A stretch of 64,000 nucleotides of DNA from Favolaschia claudopus. Taxonomy: Eukaryota > Basidiomycota > Agaricomycetes > Agaricales > Mycenaceae. The translations under genes were made by a program, and so were the position numbers. The stretch spans positions 62,001 through 126,000 of the forward strand of contig JAWWNJ010000268.1 of NCBI GenBank assembly GCA_037176885.1, written 5' to 3'. Positions 31,963 through 62,025 of the stretch are shown piece by piece (within the stretch, counting starts at the first letter, position 1; each line of letters opens with the position of its first letter). The notes beneath the pieces were generated by a model that made no database searches, was not told the origin of the DNA, and was given only the letters and a program-made list of their open reading frames with translations.

Positions 31963-33982
31963 ATGGCCTTCATCTCAAATGCGAACAATTTCACCCTCGG
32001 AGACGGTGTCTACAACAATGTGCACGGAAATCTCATCAACCACACAGTCCACCACCACATATATTCGTCAAGAGCCCAATATAGAGCAGCGATAATGGAA
32101 GGTAATTTATCTAGGACAAGCCTCGCTAAGCACAGAAACCATAAGCGACGGGAACACAAGTCTAAGGAAGCAGAATATCAAGGAATCAAGGTAATCGGAG
32201 TCCCACTTTTCTTTTACAAATGAGCCAGCCGCTGGACGTCGTTGCAGATAATCCGTGAAAACCATCTCACACTGCTCCGTCAAATCGGGAGCGGTCCGGG
32301 TTATTTTCTACACAGTGGAGAAAGCAAAGGACGTGCCATGATCGTCAAAGTTTTCATTCGAGGGGCGGATGCCAGAAAGGTATGTCGATATGCAGCGCTG
32401 AGAGCATCTCTTCATCTGCCAGTAGCGCTTGGAATCAACCGTGGAATTGACCAAAGGACTTTTGTGAATATATTCTTGCCTATCCAGCTCGAAGCTAACT
32501 TTGTTGAATAGGCATCCGAATATCTCGCGTATCGAAGGGATTTCCTCACAAGCCTCGTTGACTCAGTTTATCGCTTACAAACACAGTGAGCAACGTCCAC
32601 TCGTCGCATTCTAGCTCACAATGCAATGCAATTGCTTTCATTCTCCAGCGCACTGGAAAAATGCAAAAGAGTCACTCGCCGTAGCCCTGAAAAATGACCT
32701 GACGAGGAGCATCAACCTTGGTTTGAGACTGGTGCGTTCGGTAATATGTCATAGCATCACAGGCTCAACTAAATCGAACCTTGAGATCGCGGGGCTTTCG
32801 GTGAGCAGTAAGGCACGTGAAGCGATCACTGCGCGAGTAATTTTTTTTTTCAGGCAGGAATTAATTACCTTGCGGTCGAGGGTTTTCCGTTCCAGCGACC
32901 CTTGCAGCGGCGTTGGTCGGGTATGGGGTCATCATGGGAGGACGATCCGTGGGCACCAAGGGTTGACTACGGAACCCAGAATTTCGATGTTTTTATGGAT
33001 AATGACGAGCGTTTCGTCATAAGTATTGATTTTAGCTCGTCAGAAGATCACCTATCTTCAAATTCCGTAGAAGGTGCGCACAAAGATCCATATTTTGGCC
33101 CTACACCTCTTTTTGAATTAAACTTTTCAGGTATCGGAGATAGCGATAGTATCAAGCGAACGGCTTGGGGGATCTTTGGCGAGTTGAGTACCCGAGTAAA
33201 ATTTCCACTTACTGGAATGGTCGAGATTGACTGATGAAATAAAGGTCCTCGGTGGAAGAGTTGAGCGGGATATGTTGTATGGCTCCCTAACAAATTTCGA
33301 AAGATCCTCTTCCCTTCGACGCGAATACGTTTGGGCGTATGTGTCCTCGAAGCCGCAAGACTTAGCGACCATAGCCACAGACATTGAATCGAATCTCGAG
33401 TTGAACTATTCAAATTTTCAAAGAAGAATGGCTCCTGCCCATCCACGCATCGCTCACCACTGTGCCGGCTATATTTGCGAGAGAATTGTTTTCCTCACAA
33501 GTAATCCCGCGCATGGTGCAGTTATTACGCATGGCACATGTCATGTTTGCAAACAACAAGTCAACTATCATGAGGGGTTTGAGTGTATATGTGGAAGCTC
33601 CAGTTCAGTGACCAGTTCCATATCGTGTACATCATCTCACCTTGTTACTGTTTTTCCAGGCCCAGGTACACAGCCCACCATAAAGTGTAAAGAGCGCAAA
33701 TACTGGACCCATATTGATTGTGTGGGCTGCTCAGAAGAAATTTCGTGTCGGCGCTGTGAGTTGAATCCTATTATTTCAATGAGCTCTTGAGGTGACTCTA
33801 CTCTAGGCGCTTCTTTACCTCCAATGTTAACAAGGGATTTATCACAATCACGGCGCTTGGCCGACCGTGTCGATGCCGGATGCTCAACTCTAGAGGCAGC
33901 ATATGATGCGCCAGGGGAGATTATTCAAGGCATGGCAGAAGAGTCCATGGCTGTTGCGGTGATAGGGCCGCTATACGGCTAG
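31963..33982 (+). CDS. kinase-like protein with C-terminal zinc-binding region; 3' end disrupted by retroelement
   Basis: Member of an Agaricomycete-expanded family. The start is MAFISNANNFTLGDG, with NNVHGN typical of these proteins. The next exon (32248-32379) has IRENHLTLLRQIGSGPGYF and RAMIVKVF, which resemble a kinase glycine loop and lysine strand. Then come HPNISRIEG, HWKNAKESLAVALKNDLTRSI, AGINYLAVEG and FDVFMDNDERFVISI. I see no HRD or DFG, so catalysis is doubtful. The C-terminal part has CHVCKQ, CICG, IKCKERKYWTHIDCVGC and CRRC, like a PHD-type zinc module. At 32509-32511 a TAG and a one-base phase error separate the short exon LEANFVE from HPNIS, so the copy may be damaged or miscalled. 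The last exon runs into the LTR at 33960 and ends at a stop inside it (33980-33982). Confidence 0.65.
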
Positions 33983-35770
33983 GCATGAAATGCTCGGAAT
34001 TTATCGATTTTCGAGACCTATCAGCGGGAGAAGTGAGGTTTGGATAATAGAAGATATGCCCGTCCTCGCGGGCAGTATCTTATTGCTGTGGATAGCCGAC
34101 AAGCTGGCGGGACACCAACGGGTAGCAGCGGCTTAGCGACGTTTCCCTAAACATGGGTGCGAGACTCTGCCGCTGACTATTTCTAAACTGCCGGGCCAAG
34201 GGACTTGGTGGGAAACTACTATCTCGAGGTGCTGGAGGCGACTAAGAGGAACTACTGACCTCCCTGAGGTTAGGCGCTCACCCGCCGACCAACATGAGGA
34301 AGATCTAGCGGGGGACCATACTGAGTTCAACTTCGAACTCAGGGCGGCCACTACTCTATCGACGAACAGGATCACCGGCAGGCCCTATCCGAGCATGCCG
34401 GCTGATTACGGACAGCCGGGACTTAACCGACTGCCAGCGGGAGCACCGCGGAGCCAGCGGCTATCCAGCCAACGGCTCTGTCAGAATGATAAGACGGACA
34501 TGGCGAGTTGCCGGGGGCATTTCCCGCTGATTGCGGGCAACCCGAACGGCGAGTGGCGAGCCGCTAACGCGACTCGGCTCTCCCTATTTTCCCTGGGACT
34601 TAGACCGTTCTGAAGATGGAAGACCAGACGAACTTGACCGCTGTTGAGCCGTTGACTAATTACTCAGCGGGAAGCCTTTTCGACTTCAACTCGACCAGCG
34701 GCAAGACCACATTATGAAGAAGGAATTTCGTGTCCCCTCCCGGGGACATGGCAACCAGCACGCCATTGCACCGCAATAAGGCGCAATACCCACCCGCCCG
34801 CATGGACTTTCTCCGGGAGGCAGTCTTTTCACTCACGACTCGCAATCCTGAATATACCATTGGTTCCCAGCGGGCGCGGCATCAAACTTGGACACTCTCT
34901 CATCATGATTTTATTTGGTTGTTTCTGCTCCCGCTGCATGTATTTAATCTCCCGCTGTACTTTTTGTTACTCAGTCAATTACCTACCCGTAAACAAGGGC
35001 AGTTTGTAGCGGACTCTAGAATTTGAATTGAAGCTTTGAAAGAGACTAGACTTGATATCTGAGAGAGACTCGAGTGATACGGAAAGACTTGTGGCATACC
35101 GAGCCGCCAGAACTTTGAGAGCCCCGCCAGCCTTTGAGCCCGCGCCCTCCTGAAATACGAGGCCCCGTCTCCTGCAGTTCCGCGGTATAACCAAGACCCC
35201 CGTTCGTGCTTGATTCCGCGCCGTCGACGCCCCGTGTGCCCTGCCGTTCCGCGGTATTCAAAGACCCCCGTTCGAGCTCGCCGCCGCGCAGTGGTGTAAG
35301 TGCCCCGGCCACTGTTAGTGTCCGCGCCATCGACGTAAGAGCCCCGCTCCTTGCCAGAGCCGCGCCAGTTGAATAAGAACCCCGTCCCGCTGAGCCGCGC
35401 CTTCTGCCCGCCGGTTGTCATCCAGAAAGCTTCTTCCCGGTTGACGATCCACTACCGGGCGACGCTTTTCTATTGGCACGGAGACCCTCCCCGCTAGACT
35501 CAGAATTTCTCATTTCGAAGTCTCAGAAAGAGTGACTCTTCGCTTCTCCCGCTGCGAATCGTTTTGCCCGCTACGTTCTCGCTAGACAATCTAGTAGTTC
35601 GTCCCGCTCAAACGTAGCGACCTTGATTGATTGAAGCTTGCACAAGTATTCTGAGGGACGATACGTGCTCCCGCCACCCCGAACACACACACACACACGT
35701 CGTATTGGATTAGATTTAGTGATTTTATATTTCGGTATATTTCACGCCTACACCCACACGCACCGTTTCA
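33960..35770 (+). repeat. 5' long terminal repeat
   Basis: Begins TGATAGGGCC directly after host coding sequence. The same start follows the polypurine tract at 52554, which fixes the left end. The right end is tentative: TTTCA at 35766-35770 gives TG...CA ends and precedes a tRNA-complement-like TGGAGCCCACC. A TATAAA at about 35840 and another CA at 35938 would allow an LTR longer by about 170 bp. It contains 14 CCCGCT/AGCGGG words in 1.8 kb. Confidence 0.7.
35683..35697 (+). repeat. (AC)n microsatellite inside the LTR
   Basis: A run of about seven AC units in the LTR, present with the same length at about 54279-54292 in the second LTR. Equal length in both LTRs fits a very recent insertion. 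Confidence 0.6.
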
Positions 35771-35772
35771 TC

Positions 35773-35790
35773 TGGAGCCCACCGCGAGGG
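35773..35790 (+). other. candidate primer-binding site
   Basis: TGGAGCCCACCGCGAGGG starts with TGG, as the complement of a tRNA CCA end must, and lies two bases after the proposed LTR end. Its complement would fit a tRNA with a GCCCACC acceptor strand. I could not check this against a tRNA set. Many fungal Ty3 elements self-prime instead, so this is a weak call. Confidence 0.35.
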
Positions 35791-36310
35791 GTGACAGATT
35801 ATTTGTGTCAAGTCGAAAGAAATCACTTGTGGACGCTGCTATAAACTAGCACGAACCATCCGCTGGTTGACTCGAGAATAGAATATACACCCGCCCGTTG
35901 AGCCTTTAGCTCCAGGCCCGCGATAGAAGATTTTGCCATTTAGTTTCGGAGGAGACGTGGCTTCAGAAGGACGATCCGCTAGAGTACCACCACCAAAACC
36001 TCGATCTACCAACACTAGCCTACGCGCCGCTGCTGCCGCTCTCGATCTCGAACTTGCCGATTCTTCCCTCCCGCCTGTTGCTCTCGCCCGGGAAATCTAT
36101 TCTCTGCGCGGACGATCCCAAGCACAAGCTTATCGTGCCCGCCGAACCCAGTCGTTGAGCCCCTCTGCTCCGCTGGAACAACAAACCCCGACTCAACCGC
36201 CCGGCACTAGACCTGTTACGCCCGACGGTGCAGCTACCCAGTCGTCAACGACTCTCTCGTCTGTCTCTTCACCACTACTCCAAACTTCACCAACCCCTTC
36301 AAACAATCCG

Positions 36311-37855
36311 ATGGCTGAAGACGGCAATAATACTGTCGCCCGAGGAAAGAAGCGCGCGCCGGAACCATGGGACAGGAACGCCCCGCTCTTCAAAGAAGAT
36401 GAGCCGGAGGAACTCGTTCGTTTCCTGGACCATGTGGAGCGTATGATGGAATTAGATGAGACGCCGGCCGACAAGAAGAACGAGTTCGTCTGCCGCTACA
36501 CCGCTCAAGCTACGGCTGAGGAGTGGCGGCAGTTCGACTCGTTCTCCAAGACGTTCGACGACTTTAAGAAAGAGATTCTGGAAAATTACCCGTCAGTCGT
36601 CGACCAGAAGAAGGGCTCTGTGCAGAAATTGCACAAGCAGCTTCGTAAGTTCGCTGAAGAGGGGATTGACCGGGATGATGAGGACGAGCTCATGCGCCTC
36701 ACGCGAACCATGAACGTCGAGGCGAACAAGCTTCTCGATTCGAACTTGATTTCGCACCGGGAAGCCCTCCCGATGTTCTTCTCCAAATTGACTCGCGAGT
36801 TTAAAGAGCGAATCCTGGAGAATCTCGAGAGGAAACCTCCCGCTGAGGACGACGACGAGCCAGACGCCCGCTCATGGACGCTGGCCGAAGTCATGAGCGA
36901 GGCCAAAAAGATCGCGAAACGTTCGACCGCCAACTCGGAGTTCTTTGGCACTTCTGATCGAGGTTACTCGAGCAAGTCAAAGAGCGCCAGCGGCTCTGGA
37001 CGAGCGTCGAGCGGGCGATCGATTCTCCCGAATCCGAACGTTGCGATTAAGAAAGAAGAAGAGGACCCTAACAAGGCCCTTCTTGAGACGATTAAGGTGT
37101 CGGTCGTCACTATGATGGAGCGGCTGGATAATCAGACCTCCCAATTAAAAGAGATCGACGCCGCGACCAAGAAGAAGATGGCTGAGTTAGAGTCCTTCTA
37201 TAAGTCCCTACCGGGCAGAGTCCCAGGCGCCGCTGACTCCCAGTCTTACCCGCGAATGCCTACCGTGCAATTCAAAGGGAACCTGGCGGATCAGGGGTGT
37301 CTTTATTGCGACAAGTTTGGGCATTTTAGAGATAAGTGTCTCATCCGGCAAGCCCACATAGGGAGTGGAAAGATGAAGGTCGTGGGGTTCAGAGACTGTT
37401 TCCCCGATGGGATACCTATCCCGAAAGACGGGCACAAGTCCAAGAAGCAGCAGGTAGAGGAGTACCGCCCGGCCGCCCAACCAACGGCCGCTGCGCAAAA
37501 CTACCAGTCTGTCTTCGCTCAGCTCTCCGTTCTTGACATGGACGAGCAGGAGCTGGAGGCCGCGCAAGCCGCGTTCAGCCAGAACGAGGAATTCTACTAT
37601 GACCCGAGAGAAGAAGAATTGGTTTCCTTGCGAGCTGAGCAAGTAAACCTCCAGCGGCAAGTGACGCAACTCCAGTCGCATGGTTCAGGGGGTGTTCAAC
37701 CACCCCTTGTGGCTCATCAAAGCCAACCTCCCCCGCCGCAATTCGACGCCAACGCTGTTGCGATTCTACTGGCGGCTGTCTCAGCGAACTCTCGCCCTCC
37801 CAACGGGGCTGGTCCCTCCCGAACGGGGAACAGCGCCGAAGGAGAGCATTTTTAG
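36311..37855 (+). CDS. gag: Gag-like capsid/nucleocapsid protein
   Basis: Structural protein of the element. The first ATG in frame is at 36311 (MAEDGNNTVARGKK), giving 514 aa. The frame is open upstream to about 35933 without an ATG, so a spliced or non-ATG extension is possible. The capsid-like helical part includes WDRNAPLFKEDEPEELVRF and FDDFKKEILENYPS. A coiled-coil stretch lies near ERLDNQTSQLKEID. A zinc knuckle CLYCDKFGHFRDKC (C-x2-C-x4-H-x4-C) lies at about 37298-37340. It ends CATTTTTAG, so the stop codon follows a run of five T, and the protease frame (-1) is already open there. Intact in this copy. Confidence 0.85.
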   Translation: MAEDGNNTVARGKKRAPEPWDRNAPLFKEDEPEELVRFLDHVERMMELDETPADKKNEFVCRYTAQATAEEWRQFDSFSKTFDDFKKEILENYPSVVDQKKGSVQKLHKQLRKFAEEGIDRDDEDELMRLTRTMNVEANKLLDSNLISHREALPMFFSKLTREFKERILENLERKPPAEDDDEPDARSWTLAEVMSEAKKIAKRSTANSEFFGTSDRGYSSKSKSASGSGRASSGRSILPNPNVAIKKEEEDPNKALLETIKVSVVTMMERLDNQTSQLKEIDAATKKKMAELESFYKSLPGRVPGAADSQSYPRMPTVQFKGNLADQGCLYCDKFGHFRDKCLIRQAHIGSGKMKVVGFRDCFPDGIPIPKDGHKSKKQQVEEYRPAAQPTAAAQNYQSVFAQLSVLDMDEQELEAAQAAFSQNEEFYYDPREEELVSLRAEQVNLQRQVTQLQSHGSGGVQPPLVAHQSQPPPPQFDANAVAILLAAVSANSRPPNGAGPSRTGNSAEGEHF

Positions 37856-37941
37856 AGAGTTCGAGGAAGGGGGCAAAGGGGAAACCCAGTGCGGATAAGC
37901 CCCCGGAGAACAGACAAGTACGCCCGCCTGTAGGAAAGAAA

Positions 37942-39108
37942 ATGGAAGTTGTGATGCCGAAGTTGCCCTACAAGCCGAGGACGCTGCGAAAGCCCGCTGT
38001 CGAAGCACAGCCGGCGATCGTTGAAACCAAGGAGAAAGGGCGGGAGGAGACAGAAGAACAAAATGGCGCTCAGCCGCCGGAGCTTCCGTATAGGAACGTT
38101 CCTCCGGTCAAGCCGGCCAAAAGGCCCAACGAACCTAGAGTTCGGCCGGCGGGAGATCCGCCGTTAGTGGCCAACGAAAAGAACTACGAGTTGAAGGCGC
38201 CCGTAGAGGACCAGGACGATGAGGAGGTCGAATCCTTGATAAAGGAGATCTTCGGAAACCTGGAAATAGCTCTCCCGCTGGGGAGACTGTTCGCCCTCAG
38301 CCCGAAGTTGCTGCGCCAGGCTAAGGCGTTGCTCTCGAAGAAGAGGGTCTCGCCCGCTGTTCGAGTAACCCTAGAACAGTTGATTAGCCACGCAGAGAGA
38401 GAGGCCGACGAAGATGACGAGTCCTCCAGCGTAACCGTAGAGGACCTACCTTACGAGGTAATAGTTCAGGTCGCGACAGCGGCCGACGGACTTATGCCAG
38501 CGGGAGCCCTGATCACCGTCGACCCAGTAGTCCAATATTGGCAGTCGATAGTGGAGGGAGAGCCGGTAAGGGATGTCTTCGTCGCCATCTCCGACAATGC
38601 TTCTGCCGGAGAATCAGCGGCCCTGAGAGTGGTCTTCCCGCTCATTCACGGCGCCGCTGAAGTTGAATGTATTCTGGACGGTGGATCGCAGATCGTGTCC
38701 ATGGCCCTGTCGGTAGCCACCGAACTAGGAGTCAGCTGGGACCCAGATAACTGCATCCACATGATGAGCGCCAACGGGCAAACCGAGAAGTCAGTCGGTC
38801 TGGCAAGGAACGTCCCCTTCAGGTTCAGTGACATGACGGTGTACCTTCAAGTGCATGTCATACGAAACCCGGCCTACAAGGTGCTGTTGGGGCGACCCTT
38901 CGAAATCCTGACCGCCAGCGGTATCAAAAATACCTCTGACGGGAACCAGTTCCTGACTTTGACCGACCCCTCCACGCAGAAGCGGGTGGTCGTCCCTACC
39001 TTCCCCAGAGGCCAGCGGCGACAGGTGCGGCGCGTCCAGAACGACGCATCACCGGCTGAGCAGCCGAGCAGCCAAGAGGAGCAAAATTTTCAGAATTCGA
39101 GGAGTTGA
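37942..39108 (+). CDS. retropepsin-type protease region of Pol
   Basis: Frame -1 to gag. The first ATG is at 37942, but the frame is open back through the gag stop, so it is probably reached by frameshifting or reinitiation. A long charged Pro/Glu-rich leader is followed by the aspartic protease fold: CILDGGSQIVSM holds the catalytic Asp (DGGS in place of the usual D-S/T-G), then YLQVHVIRNPAYKVLLGRPF with the second conserved LLGRP strand. The DGGSQIV form occurs in other mushroom Ty3 elements, as far as I recall. It ends at 39106-39108, overlapping the open RT frame by 49 nt, with a slippery heptamer inside the overlap. Confidence 0.82.
   Translation: MEVVMPKLPYKPRTLRKPAVEAQPAIVETKEKGREETEEQNGAQPPELPYRNVPPVKPAKRPNEPRVRPAGDPPLVANEKNYELKAPVEDQDDEEVESLIKEIFGNLEIALPLGRLFALSPKLLRQAKALLSKKRVSPAVRVTLEQLISHAEREADEDDESSSVTVEDLPYEVIVQVATAADGLMPAGALITVDPVVQYWQSIVEGEPVRDVFVAISDNASAGESAALRVVFPLIHGAAEVECILDGGSQIVSMALSVATELGVSWDPDNCIHMMSANGQTEKSVGLARNVPFRFSDMTVYLQVHVIRNPAYKVLLGRPFEILTASGIKNTSDGNQFLTLTDPSTQKRVVVPTFPRGQRRQVRRVQNDASPAEQPSSQEEQNFQNSRS
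39084..39090 (+). promoter_or_regulatory. candidate -1 ribosomal frameshift site AAATTTT
   Basis: Read in the protease frame as A AAT TTT, this is a perfect X XXY YYZ heptamer, 15 bases before the protease stop (TGA at 39106). The RT frame is -1 to it and is closed by a TGA at 39057-39059, so the site lies within the only 49-base window where a -1 shift can join the two. It is conserved at 57683-57689 in the second copy. A downstream structure was not modelled. Confidence 0.65.
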
Positions 39109-42100
39109 TTAACCATCAAGGAGAATTAGCGGTTCAGATAGAACTGGACGAGAATAATGTTCCTAGAATTTGCGCTTTGATGAAGTCTGGAGAAGAGGGA
39201 TTTTCGATGGCCGAGACGAAAATGGCCTACCTGGCGGCTGCCATGCCAGAGATTGATGATGAACCCGCTGCTCAGTTATTCCAAGAATACAACGAGCAGC
39301 TGACAGAAGGAAAAGAAGTCGGCGAATCCTATGTGGCTATCGTAGCCAACATAACGGACAAAGTCAGAGAAAAACTGAAGGATCCGGCCGCTGTGTTCAT
39401 GACTGCCGGCATCGATATCGAGTCGGTTAGGCAAGAGCAATCTCGTCATTCAGCGGGGGAGCGCTGTCAGTGCTGTGACTACGCCGATTGGGTAGTACCC
39501 GGGTTTGAACACAATGAGACGAAAGTCGCTTTGATGGAGGAAATCATTCCCGAGGATCACCCGCCTGAAGTCGAGGTGAAGGAGGTGTTCTCGAAGAAGT
39601 ATAAACCGGTAGCGCTAAAAGTAAAGCCGGTCCTCGAGCCGCTCCCTCCCGAGTTCAGGATAGAAAGGAATATCATCGGGGATCCATTGCAGAACCTCGT
39701 CCCGCTAGACCCTCACCCGCCAGAATTCGTTCCCGTTGGGAGATACACTGCGGAGAGGAAGGCGGTTGTAGACGAACTGCATAACGATGGATTCTTGAAT
39801 GATGAAGAGATGAAGCTGGTTCATCATATGTTATCTATACACGAAAATACGGTAGCATGGGATGACAGCGAAAGAGGAACTTTCAGAACGGATTTCTTCC
39901 CGCCAGTTAAGTTCCCGGTGAAGCCAGACCATAAGGTTTGGGTGGAGAGAAATATTCCCATCCCGCCAGGACAGCTGGAAGAAGTCTGCAAGGTGCTTAG
40001 GGCGAGTATCGATGCCAATATATATGAACCATCCAATGGCTCGTATCGCACCAAGTACTTTGGAGTTCTGAAGAGTGATAAGAAGTCAATTCGGTTAGTG
40101 CATTCACTGGAGCCGCTGAAGGCGGTAACCATTGCACACTCTGGGGTGCCTCCCGGCGCCGCGGATCTGGCCGAACATTTCGCAGGAAGGGCTTGTGGGT
40201 CCACGTTTGATCTTTACTCTGGGTACAACCACCGGCTGATTGACCCGGAATCTCGAGATTACACAACCTTCCAGACTCCGTTTGGTGCGCTTCGATTGGT
40301 AAGATTGCCGCAGGGTTGGACCAACTCGGTGCCGATCTTCCACGAAGACGTAACTTACATCCTGCGAGATGAAATTCCTGCGGTTACCCGGCCGTATATA
40401 GACGACGTGCCTGTCGCCGGCGGCTTCACTCGATACGAAAAGCCTGACGGGACGTACGAGACCATCCCTGAGAACCCGCTGATAAGGGTCTTTGTGTGGT
40501 TACACTTGGTAGACTGCAACCGGGTACTTACCCGGCTAGCCTATTCTGGGGCGACTGTAAGCGGGAAGAAGTTGCAGATTTGCCGGGGAACTTTTAAGGT
40601 GGTCGGCCATGTCTGCTCATACGAGGGCATGCGCCCGGATGAAGATAGAATCGGCGTCATTGAGCGTTGGGGTCCGCTGAAGGATTTCCACGATGTGAAA
40701 GCTTTCCTGGGAACTGTGGGCGTTATGAGAATGTTCATCCAAGACTATACAGTCAAGGCTGAGCCGATTCAGAAGCTCACCCGGAAGGAAGTCATATTCG
40801 AGTGGGGCCCGGCCCAAGACGCATGCATGAAAGTTTTGAAGAAGGCTTTGCGAGAATGTCCCGCGCTTAGACCTATAAGATACGAATGGGACACCGAAGT
40901 GGTACTGGCGGTCGATACGTCGTACCTTGGAGTTGGGGTGCATGTGTACCAGCGGGATCCTTTGGACCTAAATAAGCGGTACTATGCCCGCTTCAGCTCC
41001 ATACCTTTGAATGACCGGGAGTCGAGGTATTCTCAGCCCAAGCGGGAATTGTTTGGCTTGAAGAGGGCGCTAGACCACATGCAATATTGGCTGTTGGGCT
41101 GCCGCAAGCTGGTCGTCGAAACCGACGCTCAGTACCTCAAGGGCATGTTGGATCACCCGGGAATGGGGCCCAACGCTACGATCAACCGCTGGATTGAGGA
41201 GATCCTGATGTTTCATTTCACTCTGAAGCATGTACCGGGCAAGACTTTCGGGCCAGATGGACTCTCCCGCCGGCGTATTCAGCCGGGGGATCCAGAGTAT
41301 GATCATCCAGAAGACGAGTTCGATAATAACGAGCCGCCGGGTCTTCATCCTGAAAGTAGTGCTTGGCCGCCTCTCAAGAACTTCGAGGATTTCAAGCACG
41401 ATATTGACACCCGAGGTGGATATATGGTAGCGGAATTGGCGGGAGACGAGGCTCGGTCAGCCGCTGACTTCGGAAACGACGCCGAGCAGGCTTGGGCTTA
41501 CACCCGCCTTGGTAGAGAATATGTTTTCGAAGTCTTCTCTCAGTCAAAGGGTGACGACAAGCCAGACGGCGAGCCGCTGATCCCTGACCTCGAATTGAAA
41601 TACGACCCGACGAAGCGGGAACCGTATTCTGAAGACCAACGATCGGTAGCAGCGAAGCTAGCGGACGAGCGGCTGCTCCTCATGAAGGACTGGCGGCGGA
41701 ATACCCTGGCTCGCCCGGCTGGCATGAACGACAAGGAATACAAAGCCTTCTTGCGATTCGCCACCGGCTTCTTTGAGGACGCAGATGGAAAACTCTATCA
41801 TAAATCCTCAACGGGGGGTGCACATCAGTTGGTGGTAGACAAAGATCACCGAATGTATATGATGCGGGCGGCTCATGATAGCCTGGCCCACCGCGGTGTC
41901 TTCGCTACCAAATCCTTGATAGAAATGCGTTTCTGGTGGCCTGAGATGGAGCGCGACGTCACCTGGTATATTAAAACTTGCGAACTGTGTCAGTTGAGGC
42001 AAAGGACTTTATTAAAGATCCCGCCCGTTGTCACCCATACCCCTTCGCTCTTCCAGGTGGTGCACGTCGACGTGATGGTCGTTGGAACCCCTTCCAACGG

Positions 42101-43193: not shown

Positions 43194-43415
43194 ATTACTG
43201 CTACGATATCTACGTTACAATTTGAAACGGGATTCGAAGTCTTTAAGTAATTGGATTGTCTGCATCTCCCGCCAGTAAGCAGCGACTAAGTTGCGCACCC
43301 GGGGAGTGTGTGGCGGCCAGCAGAAGGATGAGCCGTGAGGTGTCCGAAACGATTGAGCCAGTACCGAGGATTCTGAAGAAAGGGGGACCCGCTGGGGGAG
43401 CTCTTTAGGAACGAG
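43194..43415. other. short gap between convergent pol and antisense gene A
   Basis: About 220 bases between the end of pol and the stop of the first minus-strand gene. The two transcription units converge here. No coding motif seen. Confidence 0.4.
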
Positions 43416-44660: not shown

Positions 44661-45082
44661 TTTTGAAGGAAGCAGAGTAAAGACAGTAGACGAGGCTGGG
44701 GAGTAGACCCGTCCGTCCGCTGCTTCTTATACTCGAGCGGCCGTAATATAACGCCGTAAGGATAATTTGGACGAAATTTGGACAACGGCCGAACTTGGAT
44801 TACCATTTATGGTAGATGCACCCGCCGGTGGCGCAGAAAATTATTTCAAACGCGCCCGATCGTTCCGTGGCACGAAAATTTGCTGCCGGGGGACCTGAAT
44901 TTCCTCTGATCGATCAACTGAGGACAGTTGAGATTTCTGAAAGGGGGAGAGGTGGGTCACCCAGCACGTCATTTGAGGGCAGCGGGCACATCTTTACCAA
45001 GAAATAAATGTTTCCAAGGCCTCACATGGGGCGGGAGCGTGTGTTATCGGAACGAACTATCCGAGAGTACATGTGCCTGTAT
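44661..45082. other. promoter region of antisense gene A
   Basis: No coding motif. It holds the minus-strand TATAAG at 44726-44731 and the 3' end of antisense gene D. AT-rich sequence around 44830-44880 is unremarkable. Confidence 0.4.
44726..44731 (-). promoter_or_regulatory. TATA-like box of antisense gene A
   Basis: Reads TATAAG on the minus strand, 66 bases before the ATG at 44660. The same position is kept in the second copy. It suggests that gene A has its own promoter rather than depending on the LTR. Confidence 0.4.
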
Positions 45083-45711
45083 CTACACTGCCCGCATCCT
45101 AGCCGGAAGATCCAGGAAAAGATTATTTGCGAGAACGTCTAACCGCTCGCGGATAACAGCAACATACGCAGCCGGGAGATTAGCCGTTTTGGCCTCTTGC
45201 AGAAGATGGAAAACCTGGCGGGCCTCGAAGTAAAAAGACAGCCGTTGGGTTGCCTCTGCGACGCTGCGACCAACGATTACAGCATGGTATTGTTGCCAGA
45301 ATGGGAACTGCGCCAGGGTCCCCTCGTGAACGACGTCCCAAGCAGCAAGCTGTTCCTTCGTAGCCGCTAGAAGCGAGCGGGGGATCAGTTGTGGCGCAAC
45401 AGATAAGAAAGAAGTCGTCACTTACGATCGGGACCCTCTTTGAAACGGTGCCGGCGGGCAGCTATTTCATCGGCCAGCTCAGCGGTCTGAGTGTACGAGC
45501 AGTTGTGCTTCAGCAAGAAACAGCGGGTACACGGTGCTCCCCACTCAGTAAACTCGCAATGAGAACGGGCGTTGAGGCACGCAGAGCATACCCGGCCAGG
45601 CTGCCGAATGATGAGGAAATACCCGAGGCAAAATGTTCAGGAACGTACATAGTACTCCCTGAGCGGGCCGACGGGGTCATTCGGAAAGAGTGGATTTTCC
45701 AGCAAAGACAT
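45083..45711 (-). CDS. antisense element gene D, Zn2Cys6-spaced cysteine protein
   Basis: Starts MSLLENPLFPNDPVGPLREY at 45711. After an intron the next exon gives VCSACLNARSHCEFTEWGAPCTRC and then a last Cys six residues on: C-x2-C-x6-C-x8-C-x2-C-x6-C, inside the consensus of the fungal Zn(II)2Cys6 binuclear cluster. The third exon is helical: LAAWDVVHEG, RLSFYFEARQVF, YVAVIRERLDVL, ending at 45083. It aligns with genes B and C over both the cysteine part and the helical part (aromatic R-L-x-F helix, then RxRLD). It lacks the Lys/Arg-rich stretch usual after the second cysteine in Gal4-type proteins, so DNA binding is not certain. TATTTAAG lies upstream on the minus strand at 45757-45749. 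Confidence 0.65.
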
Positions 45712-45994
45712 GAGTAGACGACTGAAGCAAATGGGACCTTCCCGCCAGCTTAAATACCCCTCTGAGACCTGGCGGGAGACCCAAAAACATAGAGATCGAC
45801 GGTGGGACTCATTGCACCCGACGCTCCCGGAAGATCCGCAATACATGTGGAATATCCAACGAGGTGCTGAGCTCCCGCTGAGCGAAAAACACGAGGAAGC
45901 TTGGTTTCTAAGAAGCCTTCCTAATCGGGCAGCTTGAAACAGAGTTTTAAAGATGCAAGTTCGTTTGACAGTGGGAATATATTTCCTACTACGC

Positions 45995-46665
45995 TTACGG
46001 CCCGATGAACATAACGGGCGGGAGCCTTGCGCCGGACTGGAGAACTACAGCGTCTAACCTATCCCGGAGGAGATCTACAATTTCCTTTCGCATGCCCGCC
46101 CCCTTCGCGTCAAACCACAGCCGATACAAGAAGCGTAGCTGGCCAAACCCAAGGGTGCCGAGCATGGACCTGGCGGCGAGGATGGTGCAAGTACGCACAT
46201 CAATGTACAACTTCTCGTCGAATCGGGCGGCGGCGGCCCTGGCGTACCAGTCAAACTGAGCGATCCGCCCGGCGGAGGGAGCTAAAATCCAGTAAGCCTC
46301 CGCCGAGAGGTAGAAAGAGAGAAAGCAGACTTGCCTGGCTGAGAGGCTAGAAGAGTATCGCGACGACGGCTGTTCTCGGCCTGCCAGACGGACTTCTTAG
46401 TGTAGCAGCACAAGGCGGCGCGACCTATGAACATGCAGCTGAGGCAGGCTTCACCCCACTGAATCCAGATGCAATGGCGGTAGTTCTTGAGGCAGCACTG
46501 GCATTCGTACTCCGGCTAAGAAGGGGCACCCGTCAGCGGGAGAGCACCGAGAAAGAACGAAAGACCCACAAACTGAGCTTGAAGTACGAGCTGGTACTCT
46601 GAGGGACCGGTAAAGCTCCTAAAGCGTTCTGAGTAAAAAGTCGCTGCCAAAGAAAAGGCGGGCAT
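45995..46665 (-). CDS. antisense element gene C, Zn2Cys6-spaced cysteine protein
   Basis: Starts MPAFSLAATFYSERFRSF at 46665. The exon over 46514-46350 begins PEYECQCCLKNYRHC and continues IWIQWGEACLSC, with a further Cys eight residues later: C-x2-C-x6-C-x8-C-x2-C-x8-C. The WG before the fourth cysteine is shared with genes B and D. The last exon reads ARFDEKLYIDVRTC, QLRFLYRLWFDAKG and IVDLLRDRLDAV, ending IGP and a stop at 45995. It clearly shares ancestry with genes B and D, but identity is low, so the duplication is old compared with the LTR age. Short N-terminal exon as in D. Function not known. Confidence 0.65.
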
Positions 46666-46837
46666 CGCTCGAAGGACTCACTGGGCACCAGCCGCTATAA
46701 GTAAAATCTATAGCCGACGGGTGAGTACCACCGGCTGCCGGACCAAAAGCTCAGGTGGAATCAGACATCACGATAACGGCTTGCAGCCGGGCAAAGAGAT
46801 TTATTTGACCCTAACGGGGAAAAGCTACTAGCCTGGA

Positions 46838-47581
46838 TTATCGCTCGAAGGTCTGGCGGCGCGTGCCTTGGGTCAAGGGCACGAAGGTCGGAACATGAGC
46901 GTCCCGCCGCCTGACATCATGAAGAGAGATAGCTGCGTCGACGTCGCATTGGGCATGGATCGAACGGTCCTGAGCGCGCCACTCGCGTAAAACTCGAGAC
47001 AGGATGTTGTAGAAATACAGCCGCCGGCTGGAGTGAGCGGCATGAGACAGGTCGTGAGCAATGTCCCAGTCCCGAAGGTCGCCAGCAAATTCCTCCCGCC
47101 GACGTAAAAAGTCAGCGGGCTCACCGTCCACCGAGCCTATAAACATATCGGGGCTTAAGCCGCCGAGGCGCAGGTGGTACCAGAGTTCGAGGAATGCAAG
47201 GTCGTATAAAGTGCCGCCTAAATAGCATAAGAAAGATGAGAATTTGAAGGGCGGCTAGACTTACCGCTACGATAGACGAAAAGTGCCGGAAAAGTCGAAG
47301 ATGGATAGGTAAACTTGAACCAATCCACCCCGGTGAACAGACACTTGGGGACCTTTGCCTCCCGGCACCGAGTGCACTTCGAGCCCCAGTGAAGAAATTC
47401 ACAATCTTCGCCGGCGTCACTACAAGGCGTGCAGACGAGATTCGGCTAAGCGGCTGGTTGGACTTGGCGCAGAAATGTGTTGAGGACAGCCTACCACAGT
47501 ATAGATCTTGCGCACGAAGTCGTGACTGACCACTGGGAAGGAATGGTAGTCGATTAAGACTTCACCTATGGGCTGAGGCAT
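46838..47581 (-). CDS. antisense element gene B, Zn2Cys6-spaced cysteine protein
   Basis: Starts MPQPIGEVLIDYHSFPVV at 47581. Exon 2 carries VCTPCSDAGEDCEFLHWGSK followed by C-x2-C and a last Cys: C-x2-C-x6-C-x8-C-x2-C-x7-C. A third exon follows an intron after FVYR and reads LYDLAFLELWYHLRL, DWDIAHDLSHAAHSSRRLYF, LSRVLREWRAQDRS, ending ERQTFER-like at 46838. The middle histidines and tryptophans are not those of a known enzyme. Paralogue of genes C and D, lying in tandem with them. Each of the three has a short lead exon, a cysteine exon and a helical exon, which supports one ancestral gene copied twice. Confidence 0.65.
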
Positions 47582-48385
47582 GGCAATTGAAAGAAAAGAT
47601 GGTTTGATTGGCTATCTACCCCTATCGAATACAAGTACGGTAGCGGGTAACTCGATCCGCCGGGCCGGTTCTACTCTACGTTAGCACTCTTACGAGGCTA
47701 GCGGGAGAAATGAGGAACTAGTCACCCGGTGGAGTCCGAGGACAGCCGCTGACGGCTAGAAGAGAAGCCGCGGGCACTCCCCGCTATCTGATGATCCCGC
47801 TGATAAGCACCGTTGCCGCTCGGCATGTTGAAAAACTCGAAAGTTCGAGTGTTCAGCTCGCTCTCCAAGTCGTACTCAGCCGACGGGCGCAGCACTTGGC
47901 TGGAATCTTTTGCTTCAGACTCTTACAAATCACTTAGAGGCTCTAGCCGGGGACTCTGACTTCGGAACTCGAAAAGAACTTAAGGATTTTCACACAAAGA
48001 AAGAGTGCATCGTAAAAACTTTTATTTTTACATTTCGTCGGCTCTTTGGCCGGTACACGATGCTACTCTACGCGGGGTACTTGATTTGAATCTAAATTAT
48101 TTTTATTTTTGTGAGTACTGGCGGGTAGATTTCTACCAGGCCAGACTCTTCGCAAGAAGCGGGGTTATGGGACCCGTGCCCGTAGCTTTTGATGATTTTT
48201 GGGGGCCGCTCGGCCCCCGCGATTATGAATACAGAAAAATTTCTAGAAAGAATTCAGCGTGAAGTCAAAGGCAGCGGGGAGGTCGGGCGAATCGCTTACT
48301 TGCCGCCCGCCCACCCACGAGGAAAAGCTGTAAAGATGGTCAGCGGGGAGATAAGACTCCAGAAAGGGGGAGCGTGCTTACCCGC
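47582..48385. other. 0.8 kb spacer between antisense genes B and E
   Basis: No coding motif found. It must hold the promoter of gene B and the 3' end of gene E. It contains several AGCGGG/CCCGCT words (for example near 47702, 47790, 47806 and 48160). Confidence 0.4.
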
Positions 48386-51300
48386 TCAGCTCTCGACCGC
48401 GTCGTCGCCCGAAGGACCAGGATGATCGGGAAGGTGCCCATCGGCATCTTCCTCGCCCACTGCGTCAACTTCTGGCCCAACGTCCTCCTCGCCGCTGGCT
48501 GCGAAATCGGCAGTCCCGGGGATTTCGACTTCCTCGAGATCGCTGTCGTCTTCCTCGTCGGCTTCCCCCTGGACGCTTCCGCGTACCTCGGCCTCGCTGT
48601 CCTCCTCGCCGCTGGACCCGTCCTGCGCAAACGACTGAGCTAGGAAGTCGTCGAAAGCGGGTGCACCCACCTCGCCGGACTCGTCGTTCTCTTCTTCGCT
48701 CGAAGAAGGAACGGGCGGCTCGACTGCCCGCTGTTTGCCCTTTGGGCGTTTTTCAGGAGTTGGCGGGCGAGAAATATCCATGGCTAGCGGGAGAAGTTGA
48801 CTTTAGCAATGAATTAGAAAGAAGAGATAAGAAGTAACGTACGGTCGTCCGGGGCCTCACCCATGTCTTCCTCTTGGGAAGTCGGGTCGGGTTTGAACTC
48901 GTCGTCGGCGTCGTCGTGGACCACGGAAGAAGACTTCACCTTGCCGCTGGACTTGCCCTTGCGCTTCGGCTCTGGTGGCGGCGGGTCGGGGATCTCGAAG
49001 AACGTACCCTTACGGTACAACATCTTGAAAAAGCCGGGCACGCTCTTGTGCTCCCAGCTGTAAGGCAAGACATTGCCGTCTTCGTCGTCTGGGTCGAGAT
49101 TAATCGGACCCTTACCGTCGAGGAGGAGGCGCTGTCGGACTTTCGAGCCGTCGGGGATCTCTTCAGCGGCGTCCTCTCCCTTCAAGTCGTGGAAGAGGTC
49201 CACGCAGTCCTCCGGCTATGGAAATAAGAGGGTCAGCGGCCCAGAAGAATAATGTAAAGAAAGAATGGGACTTACTTGCACTTCGACCCACTGTGTCGGA
49301 ATCGAGAGTTCAGGCTCAGCCGGGATGAGGTAGAAGGCGAGCGGGACATTTTGGTCCTGGCGGTCCTTGGCTTCGTAAAAGGCATAGGCGTCCTCGAAGC
49401 CGGGGATAGGGACTTCGTCGAGGACCTCGCCAGGGTAATATTGCCAGCGGCGGTTCGACTTGATAGTCGACGAAGCGGTCAACCCCTGGGTCATGGCGAT
49501 GCGCAAGACCTGGTCCATGTTCTTCTCCGGCTCCTCGGTGGTCTCGCCGGCGAAGCGTTTGATGAAATCCTCCCGCTGGATCTCCCGGCGGGTGACCAAG
49601 ACAGAGAGAAGCATCTTGAAGGACTTCTGGTTCAAATTCCAGCGCGCCTTCTCGAAGCGGTCTTGGATGGCGAAACAGGTGTCCGCGGCGGTGTTGACAT
49701 CGGCGTTCAAGTCGAACCACTCTGTTGAAATGGTCAGCGGGCCTAAACGGGAAAGTAGTGGTTGACTTACCGGGTCGGGTCATCGAGACCCATTGCTTCA
49801 GCCCGGAGCCCATGGAGCTGATCTTTTCGCCGTCGAGAAGGAAAGTACAGTCCTTTGTGGACTTGCGGCTGGCGCAGGCCGTGCACTCGCCGGGACGCCG
49901 GTGGATTCGCACTTGCTGCCGCAGGCGATGCACCGCAGGCAGCGGGGGACCGTTCTAGATAGAAAAAGATTGAGGAGAGAAATAACCAGGGAAGAAAAAA
50001 GCTGTCTTACATGGGCGACGTTCAGCTCGAGATTGCCAATGAGGTGATTAGCGACCAAAGCGAACTGCTCCTTCTCGGGGTCGTACGGGAGGTCCTGGCG
50101 GCGAGCGGCTTGCGGGTAATTAGTGAACAGCTTGTTCACGACGTCTTTGTTCGGCGGCCTGAACTCCCCCTCGGGGCGAGGCTTGCTCTTCTTCTTGAGC
50201 GCTCCATCGACCTGATGGGCTGCTCGGGAAGCTAAAAGAGGGAACGCGGGAAGTTAGCCAGGAAATTCCCCGTCAGTAGAAAGAGGAACTCGCCGGCTTG
50301 GCCGGTTTGATACCGACGCCCTCCAGGGCAGCGAGTTGAGCGGCACGGGTGCCCAGCCCTTTGAGAGAGGGCACTGTGTCGACGGTGGCGGGCTTAGCCT
50401 TCTTGCTCTTTCGAGTGGCGGGGCGGCTTGGTCTCTATCACTAAGGGAAGATTTTCAGCGCAGAAAGCAGGCGGCGTTGGGACTGACTTACGAATTTCGA
50501 AGTCGGGGAGGCGGGGGACGCGCTCATCGCTGGAGCTTGGGACGCTGATGACAGACTACGAGAAGTTTATTGTTAATTCTATGTCGGCCTTACATTGGGG
50601 ACAGCAGCGGGCGACAACTACCTGACTACGAGACGGGGCCTTGCCCGCTTTGTCCTTGGCCGCCTTGTCCTCTTTCGCCTTTTTGGATGGGGACGACTCG
50701 GCGCCGGTTGAGACCTTGCGTTGATGCCGCTGCCGCTGCGACTGGGGTTTCGGCGGGGACCTTGATGGTCTTCTTGATCACTTTGACCCCGCTCGGGCTT
50801 GGGATCGTCGGTGGTAGATGTGGTCTGGACACGAACGATCAGCCGGCAAGAATCAAGATAAACTAGAAGAACCTCACCGTCTTCGTGAAATTCGGGAGTT
50901 TCTTTGGCTTGGGCCGGGGCGTGTCTCCCCCTACATGAAAGAATTGGAAAGAGAAGCGATTGGCGGTTGCCCCCGACTTACCTTGGTGGCGGCTTTTCCG
51001 TTGACTTTTCCAGTCTCAGCAGCCGCGGCGGCGGCTTTGCCGCTGACTTTACCAGACTCACTGGCGGCGGGTGCGCCTTGCCGCTAACTTTGCCAGACGA
51101 AGACGCAGCCTAAAAAGGAGAGCCTAGTCAGAGTCGCCCGGTAAAAAAAAAAAAATTAACAAAACTCACCAAGGCGGCTTTGGTCCTCTGGGGAACGAAG
51201 AGCTGGGTCGTCGGCGGCGGCGGTATGGGAAAAGCCTCCATAGTTTTGGTCGGGGCCGGGGGGAAGAATAGCTGGTTTGAACGATCAGCGGCAGCGGAGC

Positions 51301-51865
51301 CAAGAAAGTTACTGGTGGGGGCGCACCTTCTTTTGCTTGAGCTCGGTCTTGCGGTAGCGAAGGGCCTGAATATCGGGCAGGTGCTCCTCCGGGTCGTACG
51401 TCTGTATGGCTTTTTGAAGGGTGGACGCTTATGGCAGGGCCATCGGGGGCGGCTCGAGGCCTTTCTGGGCAACCCCCAAGATCGCCCGGTGCTCCCTCTA
51501 GAAAGAAGTTAACAAACCTGAAGAATAAACAGCCGATGAAAACTCACCAGCGGCTCCTGGATGGAGCGGAGCATCTTGCCGATTCCAGATTGGGAGTAGT
51601 TCGCGAGCTTCGACGGGACGAGAAGCTCCTGCAGAGTCTTCCACTCCTCGGCCTGTTGCGCCATACGGCGAACCAGTCTACACTAGAAGACTCCAGCGGC
51701 GGCGGAGGAAGTTTGGTCGACTTTGAAGACGATGCGGCGGGCGGCTGCCCAGGGCCAGACAACTGTTTGCGAGGGACCGGCGGTGGAGAAGAAGCTGCCG
51801 GGGGCGCGACGAGAAGAGCGAGAATTAGGGCGAGAGGCAGAACTGCCGCTTGGTTTGGAGGCCAT
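48386..51865 (-). CDS. antisense element gene E, large modular protein with Zn2Cys6-spaced cluster
   Basis: Starts MASKPSGSSASRPNSRSS at 51865 and ends at 48386, about 900 codons in many exons. Order: a low-complexity head; RRMAQQAEEWKTLQELLVP; ASTLQKAIQTYDPEEHLPDI; a repeat SGKVSGKA/TGKVNGKA near 51000-51110; VNKLFTNYPQAARRQDLPYD; a cysteine cluster near 49970-49850; KARWNLNQKSFKMLLSVLV with IQREDFIKRF; YYPGEVLDEVPIPGFEDAY; PYSWEHKSVPGFFKMLYRKG; and a very acidic tail. Bridging one apparent missing base at 49892-49894 the cysteines are spaced C-x2-C-x6-C-x8-C-x2-C-x8-C, as in genes B, C and D. Other breaks: an in-frame TAA at 51429-51431 and a phase error near 51065. A TATAAAG lies upstream at 52043-52037. 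Damaged or miscalled in places. Confidence 0.6.
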
Positions 51866-52540
51866 CCCGTGGGTGTAGCGTCACGAAATGAGCGAAGTGA
51901 GAAGAGCTCCCCGGTGCAAAGCGCCAGAAATCCGGTCGGCGGGCGAAAGACAGAAAGATTAAACGAAGGGGAAAGAGGGCAAGGGGGGTACCCAATCGGG
52001 GAATCGGTGGGGAATCCACCCAGAAACCTCTCGACTCTTTATACCCTGAGGAGTCGGAGTTTGAATGTTTGATGGGATTCTCGAGAGATTTTCAGAGAAA
52101 AACATTTGAATGAAGAAGCGGGGGGTCCCCGAGGCTTCTTTGATCCAAAACATTCCAAACTGCGGATGAATAGGGCGGCTTTAGAGAGCGCAGGGTTAAA
52201 GTTTGATTCAAGCGCTTCTCTAATTTGATGTACTTCCGAAAAAGGCAGGAATGACGCCTCATAATGAAAGTGACGGCATCGCCGGCCGCGGCGAGAAGTT
52301 GAGTCCAGAAACTGTCAACGGAGGTAGAGTGGGATCTAAAATTAGGTCGCCTCGAGTCCTTCGTTAAGGTTTGCTCTCATGGAATACCAAAGGGGACGAG
52401 CGGGAACCGGCCTCACTGGCGGCCCGTTCGTTATCTAAATTATTCCAAGACGAATTCGTCTGAAGTCCCCCTTCCCCGGGAAGATGGATCAGTTCTCTAG
52501 CGGGCGATCACAAGTCGTCAACTCGGGAGAGTTGAAATCT
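51866..52540. other. region between antisense gene E and the polypurine tract
   Basis: No coding motif. It contains the minus-strand TATAAAG at 52037-52043, likely for gene E, and the 3' untranslated end of the element's genomic RNA up to the polypurine tract. Confidence 0.4.
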
Positions 52541-52553
52541 AGAAAGGGGGAGA
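52541..52553 (+). other. polypurine tract
   Basis: AGAAAGGGGGAGA, thirteen purines in a row, directly before the LTR start TGATAGGG at 52554. This is the expected primer for plus-strand synthesis and independently fixes the 3' LTR boundary. No such tract stands before 33960, where host coding sequence abuts the LTR. Confidence 0.85.
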
Positions 52554-54364
52554 TGATAGGGCCGCTATACGGCTAGGCATGAAATGCTCGGAATTTATCG
52601 ATTTTCGAGACCTATCAGCGGGAGAAGTGAGGTTTGGATAATAGAAGATATGCCCGTCCTCGCGGGCAGTATCTTATTGCTGTGGATAGCCGACAAGCTG
52701 GCGGGACACCAACGGGGTAGCAGCGGCTGTAGCGACGTTCCCTAAACATGGGTGCGAGACTCTGCCGCTGACTATTTCTAAACTGCCGGGCCAAGGGACT
52801 TGGTGGGAAACTACTATCTCGAGGTGCTGGAGGCGACTAAGAGGAACTACTGACCTCCCTGAGGTTAGGCGCTCACCCGCCGACCAACATGAGGAAGATC
52901 TAGCGGGGGACCATACTGAGTTCAACTTCGAACTCAGGGCGGCCACTACTCTATCGACGAACAGGATCACCGGCAGGCCCTATCCGAGCATGCCGGCTGA
53001 TTACGGACAGCCGGGACTTAACCGACTGCCAGCGGGAGCACCGCGGAGCCAGCGGCTATCCAGCCAACGGCTCTGTCAGAATGATAAGACGGACATGGCG
53101 AGTTGCCGGGGGCATTTCCCGCTGATTGCGGGCAACCCGAACGGCGAGTGGCGAGCCGCTAACGCGACTCGGCTCTCCCTATTTTCCCTGGGACTTAGAC
53201 CGTTCTGAAGATGGAAGACCAGACGAACTTGACCGCTGTTGAGCCGTTGACTAATTACTCAGCGGGAAGCCTTTTCGACTTCAACTCGACCAGCGGCAAG
53301 ACCACATTATGAAGAAGGAATTTCGTGTCCCCTCCCGGGGACATGGCAACCAGCACGCCATTGCACCGCAATAAGGCGCAATACCCACCCGCCCGCATGG
53401 ACTTTCTCCGGGAGGCAGTCTTTTCACTCACGACTCGCAATCCTGAATATACCATTGGTTCCCAGCGGGCGCGGCATCAAACTTGGACACTCTCTCATCA
53501 TGATTTTATTTGGTTGTTTCTGCTCCCGCTGCATGTATTTAATCTCCCGCTGTACTTTTTGTTACTCAGTCAATTACCTACCCGTAAACAAGGGCAGTTT
53601 GTAGCGGACTCTAGAATTTGAATTGAAGCTTTGAAAGAGACTAGACTTGATATCTGAGAGAGACTCGAGTGATACGGAAAGACTTGTGGCATACCGAGCC
53701 GCCAGAACTTTGAGAGCCCCGCCAGCCTTTGAGCCCGCGCCCTCCTGAAATACGAGGCCCCGTCTCCTGCAGTTCCGCGGTATAACCAAGACCCCCGTTC
53801 GTGCTTGATTCCGCGCCGTCGACGCCCCGTGTGCCCTGCCGTTCCGCGGTATTCAAAGACCCCCGTTCGAGCTCGCCGCCGCGCAGTGGTGTAAGTGCCC
53901 CGGCCACTGTTAGTGTCCGCGCCATCGACGTAAGAGCCCCGCTCCTTGCCAGAGCCGCGCCAGTTGAATAAGAACTCCGTCCCGCTGAGCCGCGCCTTCT
54001 GCCCGCCGGTTGTCATCCAGAAAGCTTCTTCCCGGTTGACGATCCACTACCGGGCGACGCTTTTCTATTGGCACGGAGACCCTCCCGCTAGACTCAGAAT
54101 TTCTCATTTCGAAGTCTCAGAAAGAGTGACTCTTCGCTTCTCCCGCTGCGAATCGTTGTGCCCGCTACGTTCTCGCTAGACAATCTAGTAGTTCGTCCCG
54201 CTCAAACGTAGCGACCTTGATTGATTGAAGCTTGCACAAGTATTCTGAGGGACGATACGTGCTCCCGCCACCCCGAACACACACACACACACGTCGTATT
54301 GGATTAGATTTAGTGATTTTATATTTCGGTATATTTCACGCCTACACCCACACGCACCGTTTCA
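52554..54364 (+). repeat. 3' long terminal repeat, shared with the following copy
   Basis: Same 1,811-bp length and near-identical sequence to 33960-35770, with a few single-base length changes (for example near 52716, 52730 and 54088) and one T/C change near 53976. It is followed immediately by a second set of gag leader and gag sequence, so it serves as 3' LTR of the first copy and 5' LTR of the second. Right end tentative, as for the first LTR. Confidence 0.75.
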
Positions 54365-54897
54365 TCTGGAGCCCACCGCGAGGGGTGACAGATTATTGTG
54401 TCAAGTCGAAAGAAATCACTGTGGACGCTGCTATAAACTAGCACGAACCATCCGCTGGTTGACTCGAGAATAGAATATACACCCGCCCGTTGAGCCTTTA
54501 GCTCAGGCCCGCGATAGAAGATTTTGCCATTTAGTTTCGGAGGAGACGTGGCTTCAGAAGGACGATCCGCTAGAGTACCACCACCAAAACCTCGATCTAC
54601 CAACACTAGCCTACGCGCCGCTGCTGCCGCTCTCGATCTCGAACTTGCCGATTCTTCCCTCCCGCCTGTTGCTCTCGCCCGGGAAATCTATTCTCTGCGC
54701 GGACGATCCCAGCACAAGCTTATCGTGCCCGCCGAACCCAGTCGTTGAGCCCCTCTGCTCCGCTGGAACAACAAACCCCGACTCAACCGCCCGGCACTAG
54801 ACCTGTACGCCCGACGGTGCAGCTACCCAGTCGTCAACGACTCTCTCGTCTGTCTCTTCACCACTACTCCAACTTCACCAACCCTTCAAACAATCCG

Positions 54898-56446: not shown

Positions 56447-56534
56447 AGAGTTCGAGGAAGGGGGCAAAGGGGGGAAACCCAGTGCGGATAAGCCCCCGGA
56501 GAACAGACAAGTACGCCCGCCTGTAGGAAAGAAA

Positions 56535-61802: not shown

Positions 61803-62025
61803 ATTACTGCTACGATATCTACGTTACAATTTGAAACGGGATTCGAAAGTCTTTAAGTAATTGGATTGTCTGCATCTCCCGCCAGTAAGCAGCGACTAAG
61901 TTGCGCACCCGGGGAGTGTGTGGCGGCCAGCAGAAGGATGAGCCGTGAGGTGTCCGAAACGATTGAGCCAGTACCGAGGATTCTGAAGAAAGGGGGACCC
62001 GCTGAGGGAGCTCTTTAGGAACGAG

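Follow-up and report, generated by a model that had tools for sequence, protein, structure and literature searches.

Why should one six-letter word recur, on both strands and in coding and non-coding DNA alike, throughout a giant retrotransposon? The question arises from 64,000 nucleotides of the basidiomycete Favolaschia claudopus (contig JAWWNJ010000268.1, positions 62,001 to 126,000; hereafter, the window), part of a 264.6-Mb, 460-contig assembly (GCA_037176885.1). An initial annotation of the window had noticed CCCGCT/AGCGGG across the whole of one element and had suggested selection for a binding site. The element is a Ty3/gypsy long terminal repeat (LTR) retrotransposon: LTRs are present, and the order of domains in pol is reverse transcriptase, RNase H, integrase. 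Our reading, to which we assign a probability of about one half, is that selection maintains the word as a binding site on double-stranded DNA, and that its reader is one or more of the element's own antisense Zn2Cys6 proteins, keeping the element transcribed or unsilenced. The parts of the element are as follows.

33960 to 52553: the element unit (LTR1 and the internal part), 18,594 bp, 74 copies of CCCGCT/AGCGGG on both strands
33960 to 35770, forward strand: LTR1, 1811 bp, 14 word copies
35933 to 37855, forward strand: gag frame, named by position, no Pfam match, 4 word copies
37942 to 39108, forward strand: aspartyl protease frame, Pfam match below the cut-off, 6 word copies
39105 to 43193, forward strand: pol frame with reverse transcriptase, RNase H, and the integrase zinc-binding domain, 14 word copies in all codon phases
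43286 to 51900, reverse strand: antisense block of ~8.6 kb with several intron-containing genes, its limits and introns set by eye
49279 to 49779, reverse strand: exon of a hypervariable antisense gene
52554 to 54364, forward strand: LTR2, common to a second unit that extends past the window end

The word is present in every region of the unit, with 33 further copies in the antisense block and three in the 3' end, and it occurs 32 times in forward and 42 times in reverse orientation, in keeping with the element-wide distribution first described. All 14 exact copies reported for the LTR were recovered, each within 8 bases of where it had been placed; the pol frame is indeed enriched, but it contains 14 copies and not 12, and the host DNA to the left (positions 1-33959) contains eight copies rather than about four, against 14.7 expected. 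The longer form CCCGCTG occurs 38 times in the unit and twice in that host DNA. First- and second-order Markov models predict 14.7 and 16.4 copies of CCCGCT for the unit, and the maximum reached in 200 simulated elements per model was 25 and 29, respectively. The corresponding z scores are 15.4 and 15.0; among all 6-mers of the simulated elements, none scored above 5.1 and 5.4, respectively. Third- and fourth-order models give expectations of 40 and 61, which are high because such models contain most of the word itself. Enrichment is also absent from the DNA sampled elsewhere: four arbitrary 5-kb stretches carry 3, 2, 1, and 0 copies (2.3-3.1 expected), and the integrase loci of 30 other Ty3 elements carry one to four copies per 3.2 kb, those with four having a GC content of 0.55-0.63. 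The initial annotation had named an equal density in host genes of the same GC as grounds for refutation; neither the host DNA sampled nor Ty3 loci of equal GC showed it. Over the 264.6 Mb of the genome, CCCGCTG occurs 40,464 times (0.153 per kb, compared to 2.04 per kb in the unit), and its reversed control 29,842 times.

Codon usage was controlled by shuffling synonymous codons, keeping both the protein and its codon usage (500 shuffles per frame). The mean number of word copies was 3.3 for pol and 1.45 for the protease frame, and no shuffle of either reached the 14 and six observed; for gag, the mean was 1.2 against four observed (P 0.032). Under the stricter condition that codon junctions be preserved as well (40 shuffles per frame), the mean was 4.9 and the maximum 8 for pol, and 1.6 and 4 for the protease frame, but gag taken alone was not significant (mean 1.9, maximum 6). 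The claim that codon bias does not easily explain the word is thus borne out for pol and the protease frame but not for gag by itself. Within pol, copies fall in each of the three phases on either strand. The Markov simulations and these shuffles rule out base composition and codon bias as the cause; the enrichment survives the correction for composition that had been proposed as its test.

The consensus is wider than the core, roughly [C/G]CCGC[T/C][G/A], and beyond about 3 bases the flanks are nearly uninformative, and the copies therefore do not resemble pieces of a single repeat. No marked preferred distance separates the sites, the strongest being seven pairs at 3 bp. Two repeat-based sources of the word were considered and rejected: only three short tandem arrays exist in the window, all unrelated to the word, whose flanks lack homology, and no inverted repeat of at least 60 bp is found between 30000 and 60000.

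Selection on the word can be examined where the element has diverged. Six kilobases around the hypervariable exon were read in three diverged alleles (L065, L066, and L067), and those parts of the cassettes that could not be aligned with the window as DNA (2902, 2673, and 3757 bp) carry 10, 10, and 14 copies, whereas 2.8, 2.6, and 3.6 are expected. The L065 and L066 cassettes are 65-70% alike, and the three therefore amount to two independent cases; the word is among the top words in L067, and in the other two it is enriched, yet not the top word. Retention was then scored in aligned relatives (L065-L068 and L072) against control 6-mers of equal GC that contain CpG. The word was retained at 7 of 17 sites at 60-80% identity (controls, 47/274; Fisher P 0.022) and at 31 of 38 sites at 80-93% identity (controls, 524/803; Fisher P 0.025), and the wider motif at 111 of 164 (controls, 571/1077; Fisher P 0.0003), all of these P values being too small because the same sites recur across several relatives. 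Conservation was weak or absent among 30 near-identical LTRs, in which divergence is too low: the values were 7 against 10.4 for CCCGCT, 9 against 10.2 for SCCGCTG, and 13 against 22.9 for SCCGCY (P 0.007 by trinucleotide context and 0.08 by base plus CpG class). The controls, the persistence of the word in unalignable cassettes, and its better conservation than matched words argue for a putative binding site, as was originally suggested, and make selection the better reading of the enrichment.

The word is not the same in every family. Sister families were sought with P0010, a relative of pol from the database (56% to the window's), and the best 34 of 2117 candidate copies were taken; the sister words were read in one copy only, L073. 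Its strongest word is TTCCGCG/CGCGGAA (25 copies, 1.9 expected); in addition, TCCGCGGA occurs nine times (0.24 expected), and the palindrome TTCCGCGGAA, within which lies the Pdr1/Pdr3 site of yeast, six times (0.02 expected). CCCGCT reaches only 10 copies in L073 (5.5 expected). Conversely, the window's element has no TCCGCGGA, and its five copies of CGCGGAA compare to 4.7 expected. Two related families of one genome thus have different CGG words, as read from one copy of the sister. According to the part of the source available, TCCGCGGA is a consensus Pdr1/Pdr3 element, a site for zinc-cluster factors (PMC5539612). A dense run of CGCGGAA, with a repeating spacing visible by eye, was also seen at C1:24540-56466, which is likely a tandem or nested element using the sister word.

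More distant Ty3 families were scanned for all 6-mers against codon shuffles. Two of them, L050 and L038, are ~24% identical to the window's pol and 40% identical to each other. GCCGGA is the top word of L050 (z 7.4, both strands); the result for the GC-rich L038 is less clear, CCGGAG having a z of 5.2 on both strands and ranking second after a rare word. Eight loci of a further group were tested. Seven of the eight pieces are 76-98% identical to one another and DNA comparison places the remaining one, L033, with one of them; they are therefore counted as one clade. No CGG-containing word exceeded z 4.2 in this fourth clade, although several approached that value in L048, including CAGCGG (five copies, 1.1 expected).

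A candidate for the reader lies in the antisense block. Zn2Cys6 binuclear clusters, with six cysteines in the pattern CX2CX6CX5-12CX2CX6-8C, are a fungal domain class that reads CGG, examples being Gal4, Leu3, Hap1, and Pdr1/Pdr3. The following features on the antisense strand are relevant.

45083 to 45711, reverse strand: small gene with a cluster near the N-terminus, three-exon model made by eye
45499 to 45588, reverse strand: Zn2Cys6 cluster 1, CX2CX6CX8CX2CX6C, PF00172 match below the cut-off (E 0.018)
46405 to 46503, reverse strand: Zn2Cys6-like cluster 2, CX2CX6CX8CX2CX8C, no Pfam match
47341 to 47433, reverse strand: Zn2Cys6-like cluster 3, CX2CX6CX8CX2CX7C, no Pfam match
49850 to 49960 (approximate), reverse strand: Zn2Cys6-like cluster 4, read across two frames here, intact in the diverged alleles L065, L066, and L067

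Three clusters of the Zn2Cys6 pattern occur in the element, compared to none in 60 simulations, and the same scan of 68 other loci found no cluster. Overall, seven clusters found by pattern scan fit the six-cysteine spacing; when they are compared, the cysteines are the sole invariant columns, obviously with the proviso that the clusters were chosen by this pattern. None of the seven reaches the curated cut-off of PF00172 (best 15.6 bits, cut-off 21), and three have no match. Foldseek searches with two predicted models listed 14 and 23 PDB matches, each weak, which we take to be all Zn2Cys6 proteins or complexes containing one; the model of cluster 1 matched only Zn2Cys6 folds, again weakly. 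Nothing useful came from searching PDB sequences with two of the clusters singly or with a profile of four, and at E 0.01 no database protein was found for the small Zn2Cys6 protein or for a sister antisense exon. The cluster stands near the N-terminus in two gene models made by eye, as it does in many transcription regulators, but not evidently so in L073.

Cluster 1 is nearly constant: most of the listed copies of its exon are 96-100% identical, and most carry one in-frame stop, which in L072, the one copy examined, falls within the intron of the gene model. The hypervariable exon differs, showing 36-100% amino acid identity among the matches listed (157 matches in all, from the best 150 of 188 candidates), although there is little variation in LTR and pol. 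The pol at C70:749564 (98%), for instance, is accompanied by a 48% allele at C70:759748. All six cysteines are retained in three diverged alleles of this gene. A related observation concerns L068:103-1932, in which the first 730 bp are diverged from or unalignable to the window's LTR, the other 1.08 kb are 95% identical, and the cassette is distant. The LTR and the cassette look like exchangeable modules. Sister elements also carry the antisense arrangement. L073 has one antisense cluster in the 10 kb downstream of pol, and a match to it lies antisense, 1.07-4.08 kb downstream of pol, in 22 of the 34 sister-pol copies; the 12 without a match comprise the entire 69% identity group. Of 61 matches to the L073 cluster, 23 are at sister-pol copies and the rest elsewhere.

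On these grounds, the proposed sequence of events would run as follows. Antisense genes would yield small Zn2Cys6 proteins, which would bind zinc and the word as double-stranded DNA. With many sites in the LTR, coding, and non-coding DNA, the protein would recognize the element by the density of sites and load along its whole body, host genes being spared; the bound element would then stay transcribed or free of silencing, the presumed benefit being either activation or anti-silencing. Which of the four cluster proteins would read the word is a matter of inference, but the conserved clusters 1-3 have a stronger claim than the hypervariable fourth, since alleles whose fourth clusters differ greatly have the LTR and the word in common.

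The rival that survives best, though we consider it rather unlikely, is binding of the word by a Zn2Cys6 factor of the host, the sites either having been gathered for an abundant activator or serving the host to mark the element. Candidates are plentiful, since a PF00172 scan of the genome listed at least 149 Zn_clus matches (best 150 candidates scored); no element gene would be needed, and within TTCCGCGGAA of the sister family lies a site through which host factors act in yeast, as far as the accessible part of the source describes it. One factor, however, does not explain differing words among families of one genome, and a mark used for silencing should be lost, yet the word is kept in diverged cassettes. 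No match was seen in the PF00172 list at the clusters of the window's family, and for that reason the list cannot locate the clusters of other families. The host Zn_clus matches often came in equal-score sets of two or three across contigs; the assembly may hold separate haplotypes, which would inflate copy numbers.

Less probable again is that word binding by the element's own proteins serves some purpose outside expression, such as handling or compaction of complementary DNA, directing integration to sites outside the element, or positioning in the nucleus. Sites that extend through coding DNA past any promoter would fit such a coating of the DNA; nevertheless, no feature was found that favors any one version, and the N-terminal cluster of two gene models, with the reservation made above for L073, is regulator-like. 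We regard as very improbable a neutral origin of the word by mutation, conversion, or reverse-transcription context. The element does have a higher GC content than the host (0.55 and 0.50), and several CCGC-containing words rise together; such a bias is opposed by the Markov and codon controls, by Ty3 loci of like GC, by the difference in word between families, and by copies that outlast matched CpG words between alleles. A role in RNA (splicing, packaging, or translation of element transcripts) has scarcely any likelihood, since the two strands are used near-equally and the sister word is palindromic, even though a few antisense copies are CCGCTGAC at a branch-point position upstream of intron 3' ends and three of the five GTCAGCGG sites in the antisense block precede an evident intron end. 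Word cores extended to CCGCTGAC were seen at window positions 46532, 49232, and 49733 (reverse strand), not far upstream of an intron 3' end; these copies may double as branch points.

The element's family is young, because its LTR and pol copies are near-identical: full-length LTR matches are 96-100% identical (best 40 of 428 candidates, the window's two included), and pol copies are 98-100% identical with open frames (best 34 of 2175 candidates). LTR1 and LTR2, the two 1811-bp repeats, share 99.7% identity, and the element runs on beyond 54364 through LTR2 into a second internal unit. Comparison of 35771-45000 with 54365-64000 gave two substitutions and 49 gaps; a difference so rich in gaps and poor in substitutions suggests long-read assembly errors, and little weight should be given to frame breaks in the second unit. 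The Pfam matches of pol are RVT_1 (346-502, slightly under the cut-off), RNase H (567-701), and Integrase_H2C2 (911-967). A pol homologue in Mycena chlorophos is 53% identical (among the best 120 of 802 homologues listed), and none of the viral contigs searched encodes a relative of pol. Host exons resembling a polyketide synthase lie at window positions 9502-16991, matching a ketosynthase C-terminal extension and an acyltransferase, with a weak thioesterase match.

The closest parallel to the proposed system is found in Arabidopsis, where VANC proteins bind motifs peculiar to their own VANDAL family and found at high density in that family alone, according to the accessible parts of two papers (PMC5735166; PMC10398659). 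On that description, the likeness comprises an element-encoded protein class with a short, dense, family-specific motif, density as the recognition signal, and motifs that differ between families as the words do here; family-specific density is what was found for CCCGCT in the element. VANDALs are DNA transposons, however, and VANC is another protein family, whereas this is an LTR element with Zn2Cys6-like clusters. VANDAL motifs are also described as tandem, same-oriented, and mainly non-coding, whereas the word is scattered over both strands and coding DNA too, with no same-orientation tandem arrays in non-coding DNA. For VANC, both binding and demethylation are reported as demonstrated, whereas here binding is a proposal. 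We therefore do not class the system as VANC, although by analogy it may work like one. Fungal DNA transposons reportedly encode TET/JBP dioxygenases (PMC12730594), and these resemble the present case in that a fungal element carries a gene that may counter DNA methylation; they are, of course, catalytic enzymes in DNA transposons and not a putative sequence-reading protein in an LTR element. The fungal Zn2Cys6 regulators share the cysteine spacing and CGG-containing sites, with a possible, weakly predicted likeness of fold, but the genes here are antisense in a retrotransposon and too diverged for the Pfam cut-off.

Membership in Sirevirus (Ty1/copia) can be ruled out: in copia-type pol the integrase precedes the reverse transcriptase, whereas in the window's pol it follows. 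A likeness to these plant LTR retrotransposons nonetheless exists in their repeated palindromes, which are specific to the element and mostly built on a CGG-CCG core, in the available part of the description (PMC2829016). Those motifs are placed there in the LTR and near the env-like gene, whereas the word spans gag, protease, pol, and the antisense block; and that part of the source names no element-encoded reader (PMC2829016), whereas antisense Zn2Cys6-like genes are present here. Judged by titles and abstracts, the literature searched, mostly without subscription journals, described neither a system of this kind nor any fungal LTR element with Zn2Cys6 genes.

Elements of this kind may mark and protect their own DNA. 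Tentatively, and with less than even confidence, the observations could be extended to several Ty3 lineages, each with antisense Zn2Cys6 genes and a private CGG word spread along its full length, forming mutually distinct self-recognition codes that open or protect their own copies, the hypervariable fourth gene being the part engaged in an arms race. To our knowledge, such sequence-specific self-recognition is known from one plant group of DNA transposons. If true, our reading would mean convergent evolution of self-directed anti-silencing in fungal LTR elements, using a well-studied DNA-binding domain; nature would have supplied a set of matched proteins and words from which the Zn2Cys6 recognition code could be read, and retrotransposon coding sequence would be constrained by binding sites as well as by the protein that it encodes.

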